Assembly: GCF_040796495.1 (NCBI RefSeq)
Contig: NZ_JBFNQN010000003.1
Span: 1 to 64,000 of the forward strand
From: Kineococcus endophyticus
Lineage (GTDB): Bacteria; Actinomycetota; Actinomycetes; Actinomycetales; Kineococcaceae
Length of the DNA: 64,000 nucleotides
Direction of reading: 5' to 3'
Position numbers and translations under genes: made by a program. Below the pieces are notes generated by a model. It was given only the letters and a program-made list of their open reading frames with translations. It had not been told where the DNA came from and ran no database searches. Positions 7,578 through 40,847 of this stretch are shown one piece after another (the first letter of the stretch is position 1; each line of letters opens with the position of its first letter).

Positions 7578-8054
7578 GTGCCTCGCGTCGATCACTACCA
7601 AGACCCCCACGCCCCGGCCCCGAACAGCCTGGTGCCAGCCGCCAGCGTGGTCGTGGTGCGAGACGGCAAAGTGCTCATGCACCGCCGTAGCGACACCGAC
7701 CGCTGGTCCATCCCCGGTGGCGGCATGGAGCCGGGTGAATTCATCAAGGACACCGCTGTGCGCGAGGCGCGTGAGGAGACTGGCTATGAGGTCGAGATTG
7801 ATCGCCTGGTGGGCGTGTTCTCTGACCCCGGCCATGTCGTCAGCTACGACGATGGGGAGGTCCGTCAGCAGTTCTCCATCTGCTTCGCCGGCCACGTGAC
7901 CGGAGGAAGCCCTCAGTTGAGCGCCGAAACCCGCGAGGTCGGCTGGCACACCCCGGACGATCTCGAAGCCATGAGCGAGGACCGGGTGCACCCGTCGATC
8001 CTGCTGCGCGTGCAAGTTGCATTGCGGGACGAGACCAGCGCCTACATCGGGTGA
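7578..8054 (+). CDS. Nudix hydrolase, Pif-like (element immunity)
   Basis: A 158-residue protein with a complete Nudix box: GGGMEPGEFIKDTAVREA followed by REETGYEV, including the REUxEExGU metal-binding helix. Nudix enzymes cleave nucleoside diphosphate-linked substrates. In pSAM2, the Nudix-motif protein Pif blocks redundant transfer between cells that already carry the element, and the position here beside the element regulator suggests the same job. That role is inferred from context; a housekeeping Nudix function is possible. GTG start; the 3' end overlaps the convergent HD gene by 13 bp. Confidence 0.8.
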   Translation: MPRVDHYQDPHAPAPNSLVPAASVVVVRDGKVLMHRRSDTDRWSIPGGGMEPGEFIKDTAVREAREETGYEVEIDRLVGVFSDPGHVVSYDDGEVRQQFSICFAGHVTGGSPQLSAETREVGWHTPDDLEAMSEDRVHPSILLRVQVALRDETSAYIG

Positions 8055-8614
8055 GTGGCCCCCAGCAGTCGACTGGCCGCGGCCAGCTGATGCGATAGCT
8101 CAGCCTCTGCGGAACGCAGTCCACGCGTTACGACATGACCCGGGCCGTAGCGCCGCTCCACGTCAAGCAAGCGCTCGGCAAGCGTCATGGCCTGTCCTCG
8201 CGGTCCGGTCGTCATGTCGCAGTACGTGAGAAGGTCCCGTACCGCTGTCCCCTCATCGGAGAAGGTGGCCATCAACTCTGATAGGCCCCGAAGACCCGCC
8301 TCGAACGACGCGCAGGAGTGGTGAGCGACCAGGCAAGCTACTCGTTCCTGCCCCTGTCCGCGCAGCCACAAAGCCCCGTCAAGCGAGTGGAACTTGGTGA
8401 CGACCAGCGGGGCGGCGTAGCCGACGTCATGCAGCCACGCCGTCACCACCAGCAGGTCGCCATCCGCAGGCCCTAGGACAGCCGCGGCCTGAGCTGCCTT
8501 GCTCGCGACCGCCTGCACATGCGCCCATCGATGCTCGTCGTGCCCGAGCAGCCGGGCCGCGGCAGTCCGCGCAGAGTCGACCGTCAGCTCAGTCAGCTCG
8601 TACGCCTCGACCAC
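8042..8614 (-). CDS. HD-domain phosphohydrolase
   Basis: A 190-residue HD-fold protein. Visible metal ligands are His32/His35 (HRWAHV), the HD pair in AWLHDVGY and a later VAHHSCASFE histidine pair. This is the layout of small HD hydrolases acting on nucleotides or similar phosphates. The protein is alpha-helical with no membrane segment. It faces the Nudix gene and overlaps its 3' end, and such Nudix/HD pairs recur on actinomycete elements in my recollection. The substrate cannot be named. Confidence 0.8.
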   Translation of the reverse strand: MVEAYELTELTVDSARTAAARLLGHDEHRWAHVQAVASKAAQAAAVLGPADGDLLVVTAWLHDVGYAAPLVVTKFHSLDGALWLRGQGQERVACLVAHHSCASFEAGLRGLSELMATFSDEGTAVRDLLTYCDMTTGPRGQAMTLAERLLDVERRYGPGHVVTRGLRSAEAELSHQLAAASRLLGATHPM

Positions 8615-37211: not shown

Positions 37212-38930
37212 GTGGCCCCAGACGACGCACCGGACGGTCCCGCAGGCGGCTCCGTCCGCCCGGTCCTGCTGACCGTCGACGACGACCCCGCGGTCTCCCG
37301 CGCCGTCGCCCGCGACCTGCGGCGCCGCTACGGCCGCGACTACCGCGTCCTGCGCGCCGACTCCGGCGCCGACGCCCTCGGCGCCCTGCGCGAGGTGAAG
37401 CTGCGCGGCGAACCCGTCGCGGCCGTGCTGGCCGACTACCGCATGCCGCAGATGGACGGCGTCGAACTCCTCGAAGCGGCCATGGACCTCTTCCCCTCGG
37501 CCCGGCGCGTGCTGCTCACCGCCTACGCCGACACGACGGCCGCCATCCGCGCCATCAACGACGTCGACCTCGACCACTACCTGCTCAAACCCTGGAACCC
37601 GCCGGAGGAGAAGCTCTACCCCGTCCTCGACGGCCTGCTGGAGCGGTGGAACGCCGAACCCGTGCGGCCACCGGACGAGGTCGTCGTCATCGGGGACCGC
37701 TGGTCGGCGCGCTCGTTCGCCGTGCGCGACTTCCTCGCGCGCAACGAGGTGCCCTACCGCTGGCTGCTGGCCGGCCAGCCCGAGGCGGAACGGCTGCTGA
37801 CCGCCTCCGGCCAGCCGTCCGACGGTGCCCGCACGTTGCCCGTCGTGCTGGCCCCCGTTGCCGACGGCTGTCCCGAGGTGCTGCTCGACCCCGACGACAC
37901 GACCCTGGCCGACCACGTCGGCCTGACGACCCGACCGCAGCGAGAGTTCTACGACCTCGCCATCGTCGGCGGCGGACCGGCCGGGCTGGGCGCCGCGGTG
38001 TACGGCGCCTCGGAGGGCCTGCGCACGGTCCTCGTCGAGGAGCACGCCACGGGCGGGCAGGCCGGGCAGAGTTCGCGCATCGAGAACTACCTCGGGTTCC
38101 CCGACGGGTTGTCCGGCGCCCAGCTGGCCGACCGGGCCCGTCGCCAGGTCGCCAAGTTCGGCGCCGAGACGCTGACGGCCCGAACGGTCACGGGTCTGGA
38201 ACGCTCCGGCGGGTCCCGCGTGGTCCGGTTCTCCGACGGCACCAGCGTCGCCGCCCACACCGTCCTGCTCGCGACGGGCGTCGCCTACCGGACGCTGGAG
38301 GGCCCGGGCCTGGCCGAGTTCACCGGCCGTGGCGTCTACTACGGGGCGGCTCTCAGTGAGGTGACCGCCTGCGCCGACGAGGACGTGTTCGTCGTCGGCG
38401 CGGCGAACTCCGCCGGGCAGTCGGCCGTGAACCTCGCCCGCGCCGCGCGCAGCGTGACGATGCTCGTGCGGGGCCCCTCGATCGAGGCGTCGATGTCGGC
38501 GTACCTCGTCGAGCAGATCCGCGCGCTGCCGAACGTCCGCGTCCTCACGTGCACCGAGGTCACGGCCGCCGCCGGCGACGAGCGGCTGTCCTCCATCACG
38601 CTGCGGGACAGGCAGTCCGGTCGGGAACGCACGGTGGACGCGCAGCACGTGTTCGTGTTCATCGGCGCCGCCCCGCGCACCGGGTGGCTCGACGGCGCCG
38701 TCCAGCGCGACGACCACGGGTTCGTCCTCGCCGGACCGGACCTCGTCGTCGACGGGCAGCGACCGCCGGGCTGGAACCCCGCGCGCGACCCGTACCACCT
38801 GGAGACGTCGATGCCGGGGGTGTTCGTCGCGGGTGACGTCCGCGCCGACTCGGTGAAACGGGTCGCCTCCGCCGTCGGGGAGGGCGCGATGGCCGTCATG
38901 CTGGTCCACCGCTACCTGGCCCAGCAGTGA
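37212..38930 (+). CDS. Receiver / glutaredoxin-like / thioredoxin reductase-like hybrid
   Basis: A 572-residue three-module protein. Residues about 16-140 form a response-regulator receiver: the DDD acidic pocket, phospho-acceptor Asp in VLADYRMPQMDG, Thr in VLLTAYAD and Lys in HYLLKPW. Residues about 155-245 resemble a glutaredoxin fold (VVVIGDRWSARSFAVRDFLA, TLPVVLAP) without its CxxC. From about 252 a thioredoxin-reductase-type flavoprotein follows (IVGGGPAGLGAAVYG for FAD, FVVGAANSAGQSAVNLA for NADPH, FVAGDVRAD). The redox-active CxxC is absent: the region reads YYGAALSEV. It should therefore be a phosphorylation-controlled NADPH flavin reductase with an unknown electron acceptor. GTG start; its stop overlaps the kinase start. 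Confidence 0.88.
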   Translation: MAPDDAPDGPAGGSVRPVLLTVDDDPAVSRAVARDLRRRYGRDYRVLRADSGADALGALREVKLRGEPVAAVLADYRMPQMDGVELLEAAMDLFPSARRVLLTAYADTTAAIRAINDVDLDHYLLKPWNPPEEKLYPVLDGLLERWNAEPVRPPDEVVVIGDRWSARSFAVRDFLARNEVPYRWLLAGQPEAERLLTASGQPSDGARTLPVVLAPVADGCPEVLLDPDDTTLADHVGLTTRPQREFYDLAIVGGGPAGLGAAVYGASEGLRTVLVEEHATGGQAGQSSRIENYLGFPDGLSGAQLADRARRQVAKFGAETLTARTVTGLERSGGSRVVRFSDGTSVAAHTVLLATGVAYRTLEGPGLAEFTGRGVYYGAALSEVTACADEDVFVVGAANSAGQSAVNLARAARSVTMLVRGPSIEASMSAYLVEQIRALPNVRVLTCTEVTAAAGDERLSSITLRDRQSGRERTVDAQHVFVFIGAAPRTGWLDGAVQRDDHGFVLAGPDLVVDGQRPPGWNPARDPYHLETSMPGVFVAGDVRADSVKRVASAVGEGAMAVMLVHRYLAQQ

Positions 38931-40333
38931 GCCGAGCGGTGAGCACGCTGACCCCCGAGGAACTGCGGTCCCTGTTCCTCTTCGAGTCCCTCAGCGACGG
39001 TCAGCTCGCCAAGCTCGCCGCCTCGGGCCACGTGGTGACCGTCGACAGCGGCTGGCTGTACCGCGAGGGCGAGGCCGCGACGTGCTTCTACGTCCTGCTC
39101 AGCGGGGCGGTGTCGCTGCACCGCCGCAGCGGTGCCGACGACCTCGAGGTCGGCCGCACCCGGCAGCGGGGCGTCTACTCCGGCGCGTGGGAGGCCTACC
39201 TCGGCGAGGACGCCCCCGCCGGGTACACGTCGTCCCTGCGGGTGCTGGAACCCGCGGAGTTCTTCGTGCTGCCCGCCGCGAAGTTCGGCCGGGTCGTGCG
39301 CGAGTGGTTCCCGATGGCCGTCCACCTGCTGGAGGGCCTGCGGATCGGGCTGACCGAGGCGATGCAGCTCACCGGCCAGCGCGACCGGTTGCTCGCCCTC
39401 GGGTCCCTCACCGCGGGCCTCACCCACGAACTCGGCAACCCGGCGGCCGCCCTGGCCCGCACCCTGCACCAGGTGCAGGACGAGCTCGGTTCCCTCCAGG
39501 CCGCGGTCGGCCGGCTCGCGCCGGGGTTGCCGGACGTGCCGTCCGCCGGGACCGCACCCGTCCCGGGAACCCCGCTGCGCCGTTCCGAGGCCGAGGACGA
39601 CCTGCTCGACGCCCTCGAGGAACGCGACGTCCCGGAGGCCGACGACCTCGCGGCCGTCCTCGTCGAACACGGGTTCGGACCGGCGGACCTGCCCACCGAC
39701 CCGGACGCCGTCGGCTGGTTCGCCCGGACCGTCGCCGTCCGCTCGCTCGTCGCCGAGGCCGTGGCGGCGTCGGCCCGGATCAGCGCGCTGCTGTCGTCGG
39801 CGGGCAGCTACGCGCAGCTCGACCGCGCCCCCGAACGCTGGGTGGACGTGCGCGAACTCCTCGACGGGTCCATCGCCATGCTCGGGGCCGGCGCGGGCCG
39901 GGCCGTCGGGGGCTCGCGGGTCGTCACCGACTACGCCGACGTCCCGCAGGTCCTCGGGCACACCGGGGAACTCACCCAGGTGTGGACGAACCTGCTCGAC
40001 AACGCGCTCGACGCGCTCGGCGAGGCCGGCGGCACCGTCACCGTCCGGGTGCGTCCGGACCGCCCGTCCGTCGGCGTGGGGGAGGGCGTGTGCGTGGAGG
40101 TCGCCGACGACGGCCCCGGCGTCCCGCCCGAGGTGCTGCCCCGCATCTTCGAGCCCTTCGTCACGACGAAGGACGTCGGCGAGGGAACCGGGCTCGGCCT
40201 GGACATCGCCTGGCGCGTCGTCGTGCACCGCCACCACGGCCGCCTCGCCGTCCGCAGCGTCCCGGGCGAGACCGTCTTCAGCGTCTGGCTGCCCGTCCAG
40301 CCGCCCACCGCCCCCACCACCTCGGAGGACTGA
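38927..40333 (+). CDS. Histidine kinase with N-terminal cyclic-nucleotide-binding domain
   Basis: A 468-residue cytoplasmic sensor kinase. Residues about 16-130 are a CRP/FNR-like effector domain (FESLSDGQLAKLAA, YREGEAATCFYVLLSGAVSLHRR). His167 in LTAGLTHELGNPAAA is the dimerisation/phospho-acceptor His. The ATPase domain has the N box (TNLLDNALDALGEAG), G1 (VADDGPGVP) and G2 (GTGLGLDIA). About 110 residues of charged, divergent sequence separate His and ATPase. Its start overlaps the hybrid reductase stop (GTGA), so it most likely phosphorylates that receiver. The signal could be a nucleotide or a redox ligand. Confidence 0.9.
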   Translation: MSRAVSTLTPEELRSLFLFESLSDGQLAKLAASGHVVTVDSGWLYREGEAATCFYVLLSGAVSLHRRSGADDLEVGRTRQRGVYSGAWEAYLGEDAPAGYTSSLRVLEPAEFFVLPAAKFGRVVREWFPMAVHLLEGLRIGLTEAMQLTGQRDRLLALGSLTAGLTHELGNPAAALARTLHQVQDELGSLQAAVGRLAPGLPDVPSAGTAPVPGTPLRRSEAEDDLLDALEERDVPEADDLAAVLVEHGFGPADLPTDPDAVGWFARTVAVRSLVAEAVAASARISALLSSAGSYAQLDRAPERWVDVRELLDGSIAMLGAGAGRAVGGSRVVTDYADVPQVLGHTGELTQVWTNLLDNALDALGEAGGTVTVRVRPDRPSVGVGEGVCVEVADDGPGVPPEVLPRIFEPFVTTKDVGEGTGLGLDIAWRVVVHRHHGRLAVRSVPGETVFSVWLPVQPPTAPTTSED

Positions 40334-40334
40334 C

Positions 40335-40685
40335 GTGACCGACCCGATCGATCCGACCGCAGCGCCGAGCGGCCCCGGCTGCGCCGACTGCGAGAGCGCC
40401 GACCCGCAGGGCTGGTGGTTCCACCTGCGCCGCTGCGCCGCGTGCGGGCACGTCGGCTGCTGCGACTCCTCGCCGGGGCAGCACGCCCGCGCCCACGCGG
40501 CGCAGCCGGGTCACTCCGTCGTGCGCAGCTACGAACCGGGGGAGGAGTGGTTCTACGACTTCGCGACCGACGAGACGTACGCGTCGGGCCCCGACCTCGC
40601 CCCGCCCCTGGCCCGTCCCGCCGACCAGCCCGCCCCCGGCCCCCGCGGCCGCGTCCCGTGGAACTGGACCACCCTCCTGCACTGA
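40335..40685 (+). CDS. UBP-type zinc finger protein
   Basis: A 116-residue protein. CADCESADPQGWWFHLRRC, then CGHVGCCDSSPGQHARAHAA with PGHSVV, is the zf-UBP pattern (Cys pairs and His ligands) that in eukaryotes binds ubiquitin C-termini. Bacterial members are stand-alone and their ligand is unknown. The C-terminus is Pro-rich. One base separates the kinase stop from this GTG, so it is the third gene of the redox-signalling operon. Confidence 0.88.
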   Translation: MTDPIDPTAAPSGPGCADCESADPQGWWFHLRRCAACGHVGCCDSSPGQHARAHAAQPGHSVVRSYEPGEEWFYDFATDETYASGPDLAPPLARPADQPAPGPRGRVPWNWTTLLH

Positions 40686-40699
40686 CGTGCGCCCTCCTT

Positions 40700-40847
40700 C
40701 CCGCGTGGAAAACACTCTTTCCGCCCTTCCGTCGCGGTTCTGAGGGCCGGAAGCACAACTCCCGCCCTCCTCGGTCGAGGGCGGAAGGTGTGCTCTGCGC
40801 CCTCAGGAGCGCACTCGAAAGGGCGGAAAGAGTGTTTTCCACGCGGG
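40700..40847. repeat. 148-bp foldback element with perfect 29-bp inverted ends
   Basis: The 29 bases at 40700-40728 (CCCGCGTGGAAAACACTC at the start) are exactly inverted at 40819-40847. Inside are nested arms: TGAGGGC (40741-40747) with 40799-40805, AGCACA (40752-40757) with 40789-40794, and CCGCCCTC (40762-40769) with 40777-40784 around a 7-base loop. The whole block can fold into one long interrupted hairpin. It carries no gene. It may be a MITE-like insertion, a structured RNA or an unusually large terminator of the UBP operon. Confidence 0.8.

Follow-up and report, generated by a model that had tools for sequence, protein, structure and literature searches.

Fusions of a receiver (REC) domain with thioredoxin reductase (TrxR) are on record in a census as the 'Mycobacterium-like combination', and the passages of that census on these fusions mention neither a kinase partner, nor loss of the CxxC motif, nor zf-UBP (PMC5847659). 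A related TrxR-like module is present in the CRP-TrxR enzymes, also named 'cyclic nucleotide-binding domain-containing thioredoxin-disulfide reductase'. According to the available sections of its report, the described member ATII-TrxR is 87% identical to a Cupriavidus metallidurans enzyme and exhibits Km values of 5.21 µM for NADPH and 4.17 µM for NADH (PMC6544261). In this study, we report a three-gene locus of Kineococcus endophyticus (Actinomycetota) located at positions 37212-40685 of the window, that is, the whole stretch of 64,000 nucleotides that was analysed (contig NZ_JBFNQN010000003.1, positions 1 to 64,000). It encodes a flavoprotein reductase with the same named architecture as the fusions of the census, a soluble histidine kinase and a zf-UBP protein. 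Whereas CRP-TrxR proteins carry the CRP-like domain on the enzyme itself, the system of the window has a REC domain and a separate kinase.

The locus is best classed as a two-component system whose output would be unusual. Most systems of this kind act through DNA binding or through enzymes of second messengers, and a redox enzyme that is conserved and gated by phosphorylation would be uncommon among their outputs. In our opinion there is an even chance that the system acts by phospho-gating an NAD(P)H flavoenzyme, the zf-UBP protein being its partner. The initial annotation, made from the sequence alone, knew of no defined pathway for this trio. That stands in so far as the open-licence literature yielded no paper on the trio or on the function of a bacterial zf-UBP protein, and it must be amended in that two of the parts are in print (PMC5847659 and PMC6544261, in the sections available). 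The genes are as follows:

37212..38930, + strand, gene of the REC/glutaredoxin-like/TrxR-like flavoprotein, 572 aa (open reading frame (ORF) call, Pfam, AlphaFold model)
38927..40333, + strand, gene of the soluble histidine kinase, 468 aa (a CRP-like domain, a DHp that contains a helical insertion, and an ATPase domain)
38927..38930, + strand, 4-bp overlap of reductase stop and kinase start
40335..40685, + strand, gene of the zf-UBP protein, 116 aa

Conservation of the kinase-reductase pair

All three genes are arranged head-to-tail, with one base between the kinase and zf-UBP genes. The histidine kinase with a CRP-like domain overlapping the reductase gene, and the zf-UBP gene 1 bp behind it, had both been predicted in the initial annotation and agree with the 4-bp overlap, the Pfam matches of the kinase (cNMP_binding and HATPase_c) and the zf-UBP match of ORF 40335-40685. 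It must be noted that 60 long ORFs were found in 14 kb, length alone being cheap evidence in a GC-rich genome; chance ORFs or misannotation were ruled out by the domain scores and by conservation across phyla. Pfam revealed no recognised DNA-binding or second-messenger domain in the three proteins.

Conserved linkage in other genomes had been named as a test in the initial annotation and was borne out: the kinase was found beside the reductase in 35 of 35 best-scoring matches, in 80 of 80 named actinobacterial loci (the best 80 of 588) and in 6 of 6 loci from outside the phylum among the matches listed. The first sample comes from a search of the window reductase in 246 genomes of Actinomycetota, in which every one of the 35 best matches outside the window (L044-L078) adjoins a window-type kinase; a contig end cuts L060 and the kinase of L072, and the kinase of L077 lies upstream and has a different N-terminus. 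In the second scan, the kinase starts at most 400 bp downstream of the reductase in 79 of the 80 loci and 1.3 kb downstream in the remaining one. The third sample consists of the full-length REC-type loci among the plasmid matches listed, belonging to Deinococcus aetherius, Caballeronia NK8, Paraburkholderia PGU19, Gloeothece and two Nostoc (Deinococcota, Cyanobacteriota, Pseudomonadota); the kinase is adjacent in five and at 2.6 kb in one, with a transposase and a bestrophin gene in between. No window-type kinase was found in the next 30 actinobacterial REC-type loci (L079-L108) within the fetched flanks, some of them short; downstream of one of these (L100) lies a kinase from a different family, HisKA_3.

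The domains and sites relevant to phosphotransfer are:

37263..37604, + strand, REC domain, residues 18-131 of the reductase (Pfam Response_reg 20-131, 52 bits)
37434-37436, + strand, predicted phospho-acceptor D75 (REC alignment)
39056..39301, + strand, cNMP-binding (CRP-like) domain, residues 44-125 of the kinase (Pfam cNMP_binding 29.3 bits, cut-off 27.5)
39425..39427, + strand, predicted phospho-acceptor histidine H167, in HELGNP (kinase alignment)

The phospho-acceptor sites are intact on both partners: the alignment shows the complete REC catalytic set (D23, D24, D75, T103 and K126) in the window protein, and the position of H167 is His in all 134 near-full-length kinases. D75 is kept in 35/36 kinase-linked rows (the window and the 35 matches, the other row being truncated) vs. 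11/30 kinase-less rows (including one fragment that lacks REC), T103 in 36/36 vs. 3/30 and K126 in 36/36 vs. 14/30. A degenerate REC domain was therefore ruled out by the intact sites for the kinase-linked clade, and holds for many of the kinase-less sisters. In a tree of 111 TrxR modules, a quick tree from which 64 of the 80 named loci were left out, the kinase-linked proteins formed one clade of 60 rows (SH-aLRT 96) spanning Actinomycetota, Deinococcota, Cyanobacteriota and Pseudomonadota. Three loci (L155, L159 and L168) are L058, L056 and L062 fetched again with more flanking sequence; the TrxR alignment, the kinase counts and the tree do not include the reductases and kinases of these three. 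The contrast in the REC sites is what a phosphotransfer pair would predict, and phosphotransfer from the kinase to the REC domain appears very likely.

With respect to the kinase itself, its N and G boxes (N359, D394/G396 and G422/G424) are kept at 99-100%, and HATPase_c matches residues 348-458 with 88.8 bits; no HisKA domain was reported by Pfam at E 0.001. The AlphaFold model (mean pLDDT 82.1, pTM 0.44) shows a beta-rich N-terminal domain followed by two long helices, the first with H167, which are separated by a helical insertion (approximately 216-247) and lead to an ATPase-like domain; no membrane segment was seen in it. The cAMP phosphate cassette of cyclic-nucleotide-binding domains is GE...RxA, while the window kinase has GAWEAYLGED..YTSSLRV at this place, with the E and the R not in the expected register. 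In addition, the insertion in the DHp hairpin (residues ~200-250) is conserved in the family, with E223 at 100% and several acidic and Trp positions, and could be a candidate partner interface.

A TrxR-like flavoprotein without CxxC

The redox part of the reductase comprises two domains:

37680..37916, + strand, glutaredoxin/thioredoxin-fold domain without CxxC, residues 157-235 (AlphaFold model, alignment)
37944..38924, + strand, TrxR-like FAD/NAD(P)H module without CxxC, residues 245-571 (Pfam Pyr_redox_2 247-558, 106.8 bits)

In the AlphaFold model of the reductase (mean pLDDT 86.1, pTM 0.67), residues 157-235 follow the strand-helix-strand-helix-strand-strand-helix order of the thioredoxin/glutaredoxin fold. 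AhpF and TrxR occupied the top Foldseek ranks, and the FAD/NADPH fold is common to the window protein, AhpF and bacterial TrxR (4o5q, 5uth, 5mh4). The model was closer to the FR conformation of TrxR (5mh4, TM 0.91 by target) than to the FO conformation (5mjk, 0.63), which is a predicted and not a measured state. AhpF likewise has thioredoxin-fold domains in front of its reductase module and uses its CxxC; the bacterial TrxR 5uth also has a CxxC, whereas the window reductase has none. The alignment places GVYYGAAL at the CxxC position of TrxR and GDRWSARS at that of the glutaredoxin motif. A REC/glutaredoxin-like/TrxR-like fusion with an intact phospho-Asp and no CxxC in either redox module, as initially annotated, is thus confirmed. 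Both an ordinary TrxR and a glutaredoxin were ruled out by the missing CxxC (and, for the glutaredoxin, CxxS).

The window protein retains the motifs for FAD (GGGPAG) and NAD(P)H (GxxNSAGQ), as well as GDVR. The TIGR01292 score was 215.1 bits, under the cut-off of 343.45. The whole TrxR module of the window protein contains 2 Cys, and no Cys was found among the invariant columns of 16 kinase-linked reductases. Among 81 aligned TrxR-like rows, CATC is present in three classical ones (L117, L118 and L121) and absent from all others, L108 being gapped there. The CRP-TrxR copies read here resemble the window reductase in having no CxxC and often lying beside zf-UBP genes. The loss of the dithiol turns the electron acceptor into a concrete question.

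The zf-UBP protein as a genomic partner

This zinc finger type is best known from ubiquitin enzymes, and here it stands beside a kinase-linked flavoenzyme in many bacteria. Mini-proteins with zf-UBP have been described in several phyla, with no function assigned in the passages available (PMC2602986). In the second scan, a zf-UBP gene lies directly behind the kinase in 35 of the 80 named loci (best 80 of 588) and upstream on the opposite strand in one more; for the 44 loci without it, 43 genomes were searched and 41 hold a zf-UBP gene elsewhere. In the set of 246 genomes, zf-UBP was found in 61, a TrxR-like gene of this family in 59, both in 48 and neither in 174 (Fisher p 2.5e-28, the test ignoring phylogeny). 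This amounts to 48/61 genomes with zf-UBP vs. 11/185 others, where the TrxR-like genomes were classed by score (best E ~1e-70 or lower, plus G202 with a split match) and not each by CxxC.

Linkage was also observed on plasmids, a TrxR-like gene being within 2.5 kb of zf-UBP in at least 41 of the 60 records listed (of 87), and within 400 bp in 37 of these. The count of 41/60 is a lower bound, as the neighbours rest on 30 of 84, 40 of 125 and 60 of 108 TrxR records, and two of the 19 misses (L311 and L309) do carry a TrxR-like gene or fragment beside zf-UBP according to the hidden Markov model (HMM). These pairs, with many near-copies, belong to Rhodococcus, Streptomyces, Tsukamurella, Nocardia, Rhizobium, Agrobacterium, Novosphingobium, Paraburkholderia and Gemmatirosa; in a Hymenobacter plasmid, a TrxR-like fragment adjoins zf-UBP. 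For 7 of the 41 neighbours the CxxC position was inspected, and none of these 7 has the motif. Since only 3 of the 41 are full-length REC-type proteins, the tie of zf-UBP belongs to the wider TrxR-like family, beyond the kinase form.

One natural fusion was found, in which a zf-UBP domain forms the C-terminus of the kinase (L071). On the TrxR tree, the zf-UBP linkage shows approximately 18 changes, gains and losses pooled, a rough value because the zf-UBP labels of L056, L058 and L062 were assigned manually on the basis of their longer versions, and any locus with short flanks was scored as lacking the gene. Repeated linkage, genome co-occurrence and the kinase fusion show that the zf-UBP protein is, in genomic terms, a recurrent partner of these flavoproteins, and that this holds beyond a single phylum; a functional partnership with the reductase is likely. 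In this way, bacterial zf-UBP proteins gain a recurrent and testable partner.

Finger and tail of the zf-UBP protein

Two parts can be distinguished in the protein:

40380..40577, + strand, zf-UBP domain, residues 16-81 (Pfam; C16, C19, C34, C37, C42, H50, H54 and H60, with the extra C43)
40572..40682, + strand, proline-rich C-terminal tail, common to most zf-UBPs of this clade's operons

The predicted zinc-binding set is conserved in bacterial sequences, with C16, C19, C34, C37, C42 and H50 in 129/129, H54 in 128/129 and H60 in 127/129. The nearest solved structure is the bacterial 2ida (E 1.7e-16), which we take to be RPA1320 of Rhodopseudomonas palustris and on which no paper was found in the open-licence literature. 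It is a CCD-type finger, as in the window protein, and the alignment reaches residue 84 of 102, short of the tail. The zf-UBP domains of USP5 and HDAC6 read free C-terminal carboxylates, and the Arg of the CGR motif is presumably the residue holding the ubiquitin carboxylate. The CGR motif of human USP16 aligns with C42-C43-D44 of the window protein. D44 thus takes the place of the Arg and is Asp in 124/129 bacterial zf-UBPs, while C43, Cys in 128/129, aligns with a Gly of USP16. R32 is invariant (129/129) and could, from its conservation, substitute for the missing Arg; the aromatic positions 28, 72 and 74 are mostly kept. Of the two roles initially proposed for the finger, that of partner gained ground with its position beside this enzyme family in more than one phylum, and that of C-terminal-peptide reader was weakened by the Asp at the site of the CGR Arg.

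At residue 75, the zf-UBPs of kinase loci have D/N in 41 and C in 7 of 52, vs. 12 D/N and 63 C of 76 in the others. Those with D/N, including that of the window and also most of the 12 found elsewhere, have a common tail, GPxLAPPxxHPxDQPxPGPxxRVPxDW, which is best taken from the alignments as a mark of the window's part of the family and not of every kinase operon. In mycobacterial genomes whose operon is without zf-UBP, a tail-type copy is present elsewhere in five of six, and none in the sixth. The tail pattern is strict: it marked 8 of the 25 zf-UBPs identified in 30 loci, and L333 and L341 are also tail-type by eye. Additionally, the zf-UBP behind the kinase of L047 (~7996-8320, genome G023) matches the model in its first part only and then in another frame, so that it looks frame-shifted; this genome has a tail-type copy elsewhere (L213).

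Proposed mechanism and alternative explanations

The locus would encode a cytosolic two-component system in which response regulator and redox enzyme are one and the same protein. An intracellular signal would be sensed through the CRP-like domain of the kinase, and the kinase would phosphorylate D75 of the REC domain, as the gene pairing and the intact sites suggest. Phosphorylation may then shift the REC and glutaredoxin-fold domains on the TrxR-like module and thereby gate the flow of electrons from NAD(P)H through FAD to an acceptor. Given the missing CxxC and the lack of an invariant Cys, the enzyme should not run a classical dithiol relay. The zf-UBP protein would most probably act as an adaptor bringing the reductase to its target, its C-terminal tail, where present, being a candidate docking segment. 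That the output is an enzymatic redox reaction seems fairly likely.

Several observations weigh against this proposal. The kinase/REC contrast is one of clade against clade and so close to a single evolutionary event, and the co-occurrence statistic is affected by the same neglect of phylogeny noted above. In 45 of the 80 named loci no zf-UBP gene follows the kinase, the flanks of the six non-actinobacterial REC loci revealed none, and 13 of the 61 genomes with zf-UBP have no such TrxR-like gene. Moreover, the tail is absent from the seven Cys-75 zf-UBPs of kinase loci (L070, L071 twice, L074, L076, L078 and L274) and from those of L155, L159 and L168, long operons whose zf-UBPs the scripted count had placed among the others. 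The finger is also encoded within Na+/H+ exchanger ORFs (according to Pfam in L120 and L183, and according to HMM in L166, L196, L198 and L212). Finally, in the available sections of its report, ATII-TrxR reduces DTNB and thioredoxin (PMC6544261).

This last report, if correct, is the chief reason not to dismiss disulfide reduction. The window enzyme might be a disulfide reductase despite lacking CxxC, acting on thioredoxin or low-molecular-weight disulfides, and the cysteine pairs modelled in ATII-TrxR (Cys206-Cys223 and Cys376-Cys467) are indeed not CxxC in either case (PMC6544261, in part). The C. metallidurans CRP-TrxR homologue read here is also without the motif, and may differ from the relative to which ATII-TrxR is 87% identical. 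We nevertheless regard this as unlikely, with two Cys in the window module and none invariant in the 16 kinase-linked proteins. The same lack of a dithiol and of an invariant Cys would suit a TrxR-like module that serves as a redox or NAD(P)H sensor, its FAD/NAD(P)H occupancy setting the uptake or hold of phosphate by REC while the kinase reports elsewhere. Some operons have 2-3 kinases per REC, and none of the three genes has a recognised DNA-binding or second-messenger domain, which would also fit. This sensor role is possible but somewhat improbable, as the FAD and NAD(P)H motifs are kept and the CRP-TrxR relative turns over NADPH and NADH according to the part of its report available (PMC6544261).

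Other alternatives concern the zf-UBP protein. Its thiols, including C43, might replace the lost dithiol as electron acceptor, considering the Cys-rich finger, the Cys in 128/129 where USP16 has Gly, the recurrent gene pairing and a plasmid in which a thioredoxin gene lies beside zf-UBP and CRP-TrxR. To this we give little credence: the gene is missing behind so many kinases (45/80), and C43 is kept in 14/14 zf-UBPs read from genomes without such a TrxR-like gene, so that C43 as an acceptor specific to TrxR-linked fingers was considered unsupported. A finger that reads free C-terminal carboxylates and recruits tagged clients is in keeping with the zinc ligands, the mostly kept aromatics and R32; it is improbable in view of the Asp that replaces the CGR Arg in 124/129. 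It is very unlikely that the zf-UBP protein is a bystander in the operon. Its absence behind the kinase in 45/80 and its many other contexts would be expected of one, while its links, found beyond a single phylum, to TrxR-likes of the REC, CRP and short types, the roughly 18 changes on the tree, the co-occurrence, the fusion to a kinase and the tail common to most kinase-linked copies would not.

Beyond the preferred phospho-gated flavoenzyme, a wider and rather doubtful idea is that several phyla have a redox-signalling module in common. In it, a TrxR-like flavoprotein without CxxC, under the control of kinase and REC or of a built-in CRP-like domain, would work through a dedicated zf-UBP protein as acceptor or as adaptor to targets such as Na+/H+ exchangers, some of which have this finger fused to them.

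Wider gene contexts

The longest operons (family code f19; L155, L159 and L168) comprise REC-TrxR, 2-3 kinases, a DAC-domain protein, DUF924, an MFS transporter and zf-UBP, followed in two of these three widest loci by a Na+/H+ exchanger. Chaperone genes surround zf-UBP/TrxR-like pairs on a Rhodococcus plasmid (ClpB and a J-domain protein) and a Paraburkholderia plasmid (Clp ATPase and Hsp20). The exchangers and chaperones suggest a relation to stress or ion homeostasis. Among the zf-UBP contexts without TrxR-like genes, the annotation of a selection of 20 neighbours revealed no second single theme beyond Na+/H+ exchangers.

The DAC-domain (diadenylate-cyclase-like) gene was found in L155, L159, L168, L059, L063, L065, L162, L164 and L194, mostly with DUF924 and MFS where the locus reaches, either in an operon with REC-TrxR and CRP-like kinases or before zf-UBP on contigs without them. 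The L155 copy has DGA, and RHM in place of RHR, presumably the motif expected there. The exchanger with a C-terminal zf-UBP domain in L120 (4971-6854) belongs to the genome of the window, on contig 6. The finger is divergent from or overlaps an exchanger ORF in L181, L199, L202, L205, L206 and L211, and adjoins an exchanger-rhodanese fusion in L203. L202 also encodes an SrpI-like encapsulin shell protein that carries a cNMP-binding domain (1000-2403), approximately 3.6 kb from zf-UBP, with the exchanger gene in between and a sigma factor gene beyond; L181, L199 and L205 appear to have similar clusters.

Directly behind the zf-UBP gene of the window, at 40700-40847, there is a 32-nt inverted repeat with 97% complementary arms, 84 nt apart. 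A 23-base part of its arm has 63 copies in the genome (at most 3 mismatches) vs. 0 for the reversed control. Many of these copies are opposite-strand pairs 38-39 bp apart, the window copy being spaced wider. The repeat is a member of a REP-like palindrome family.

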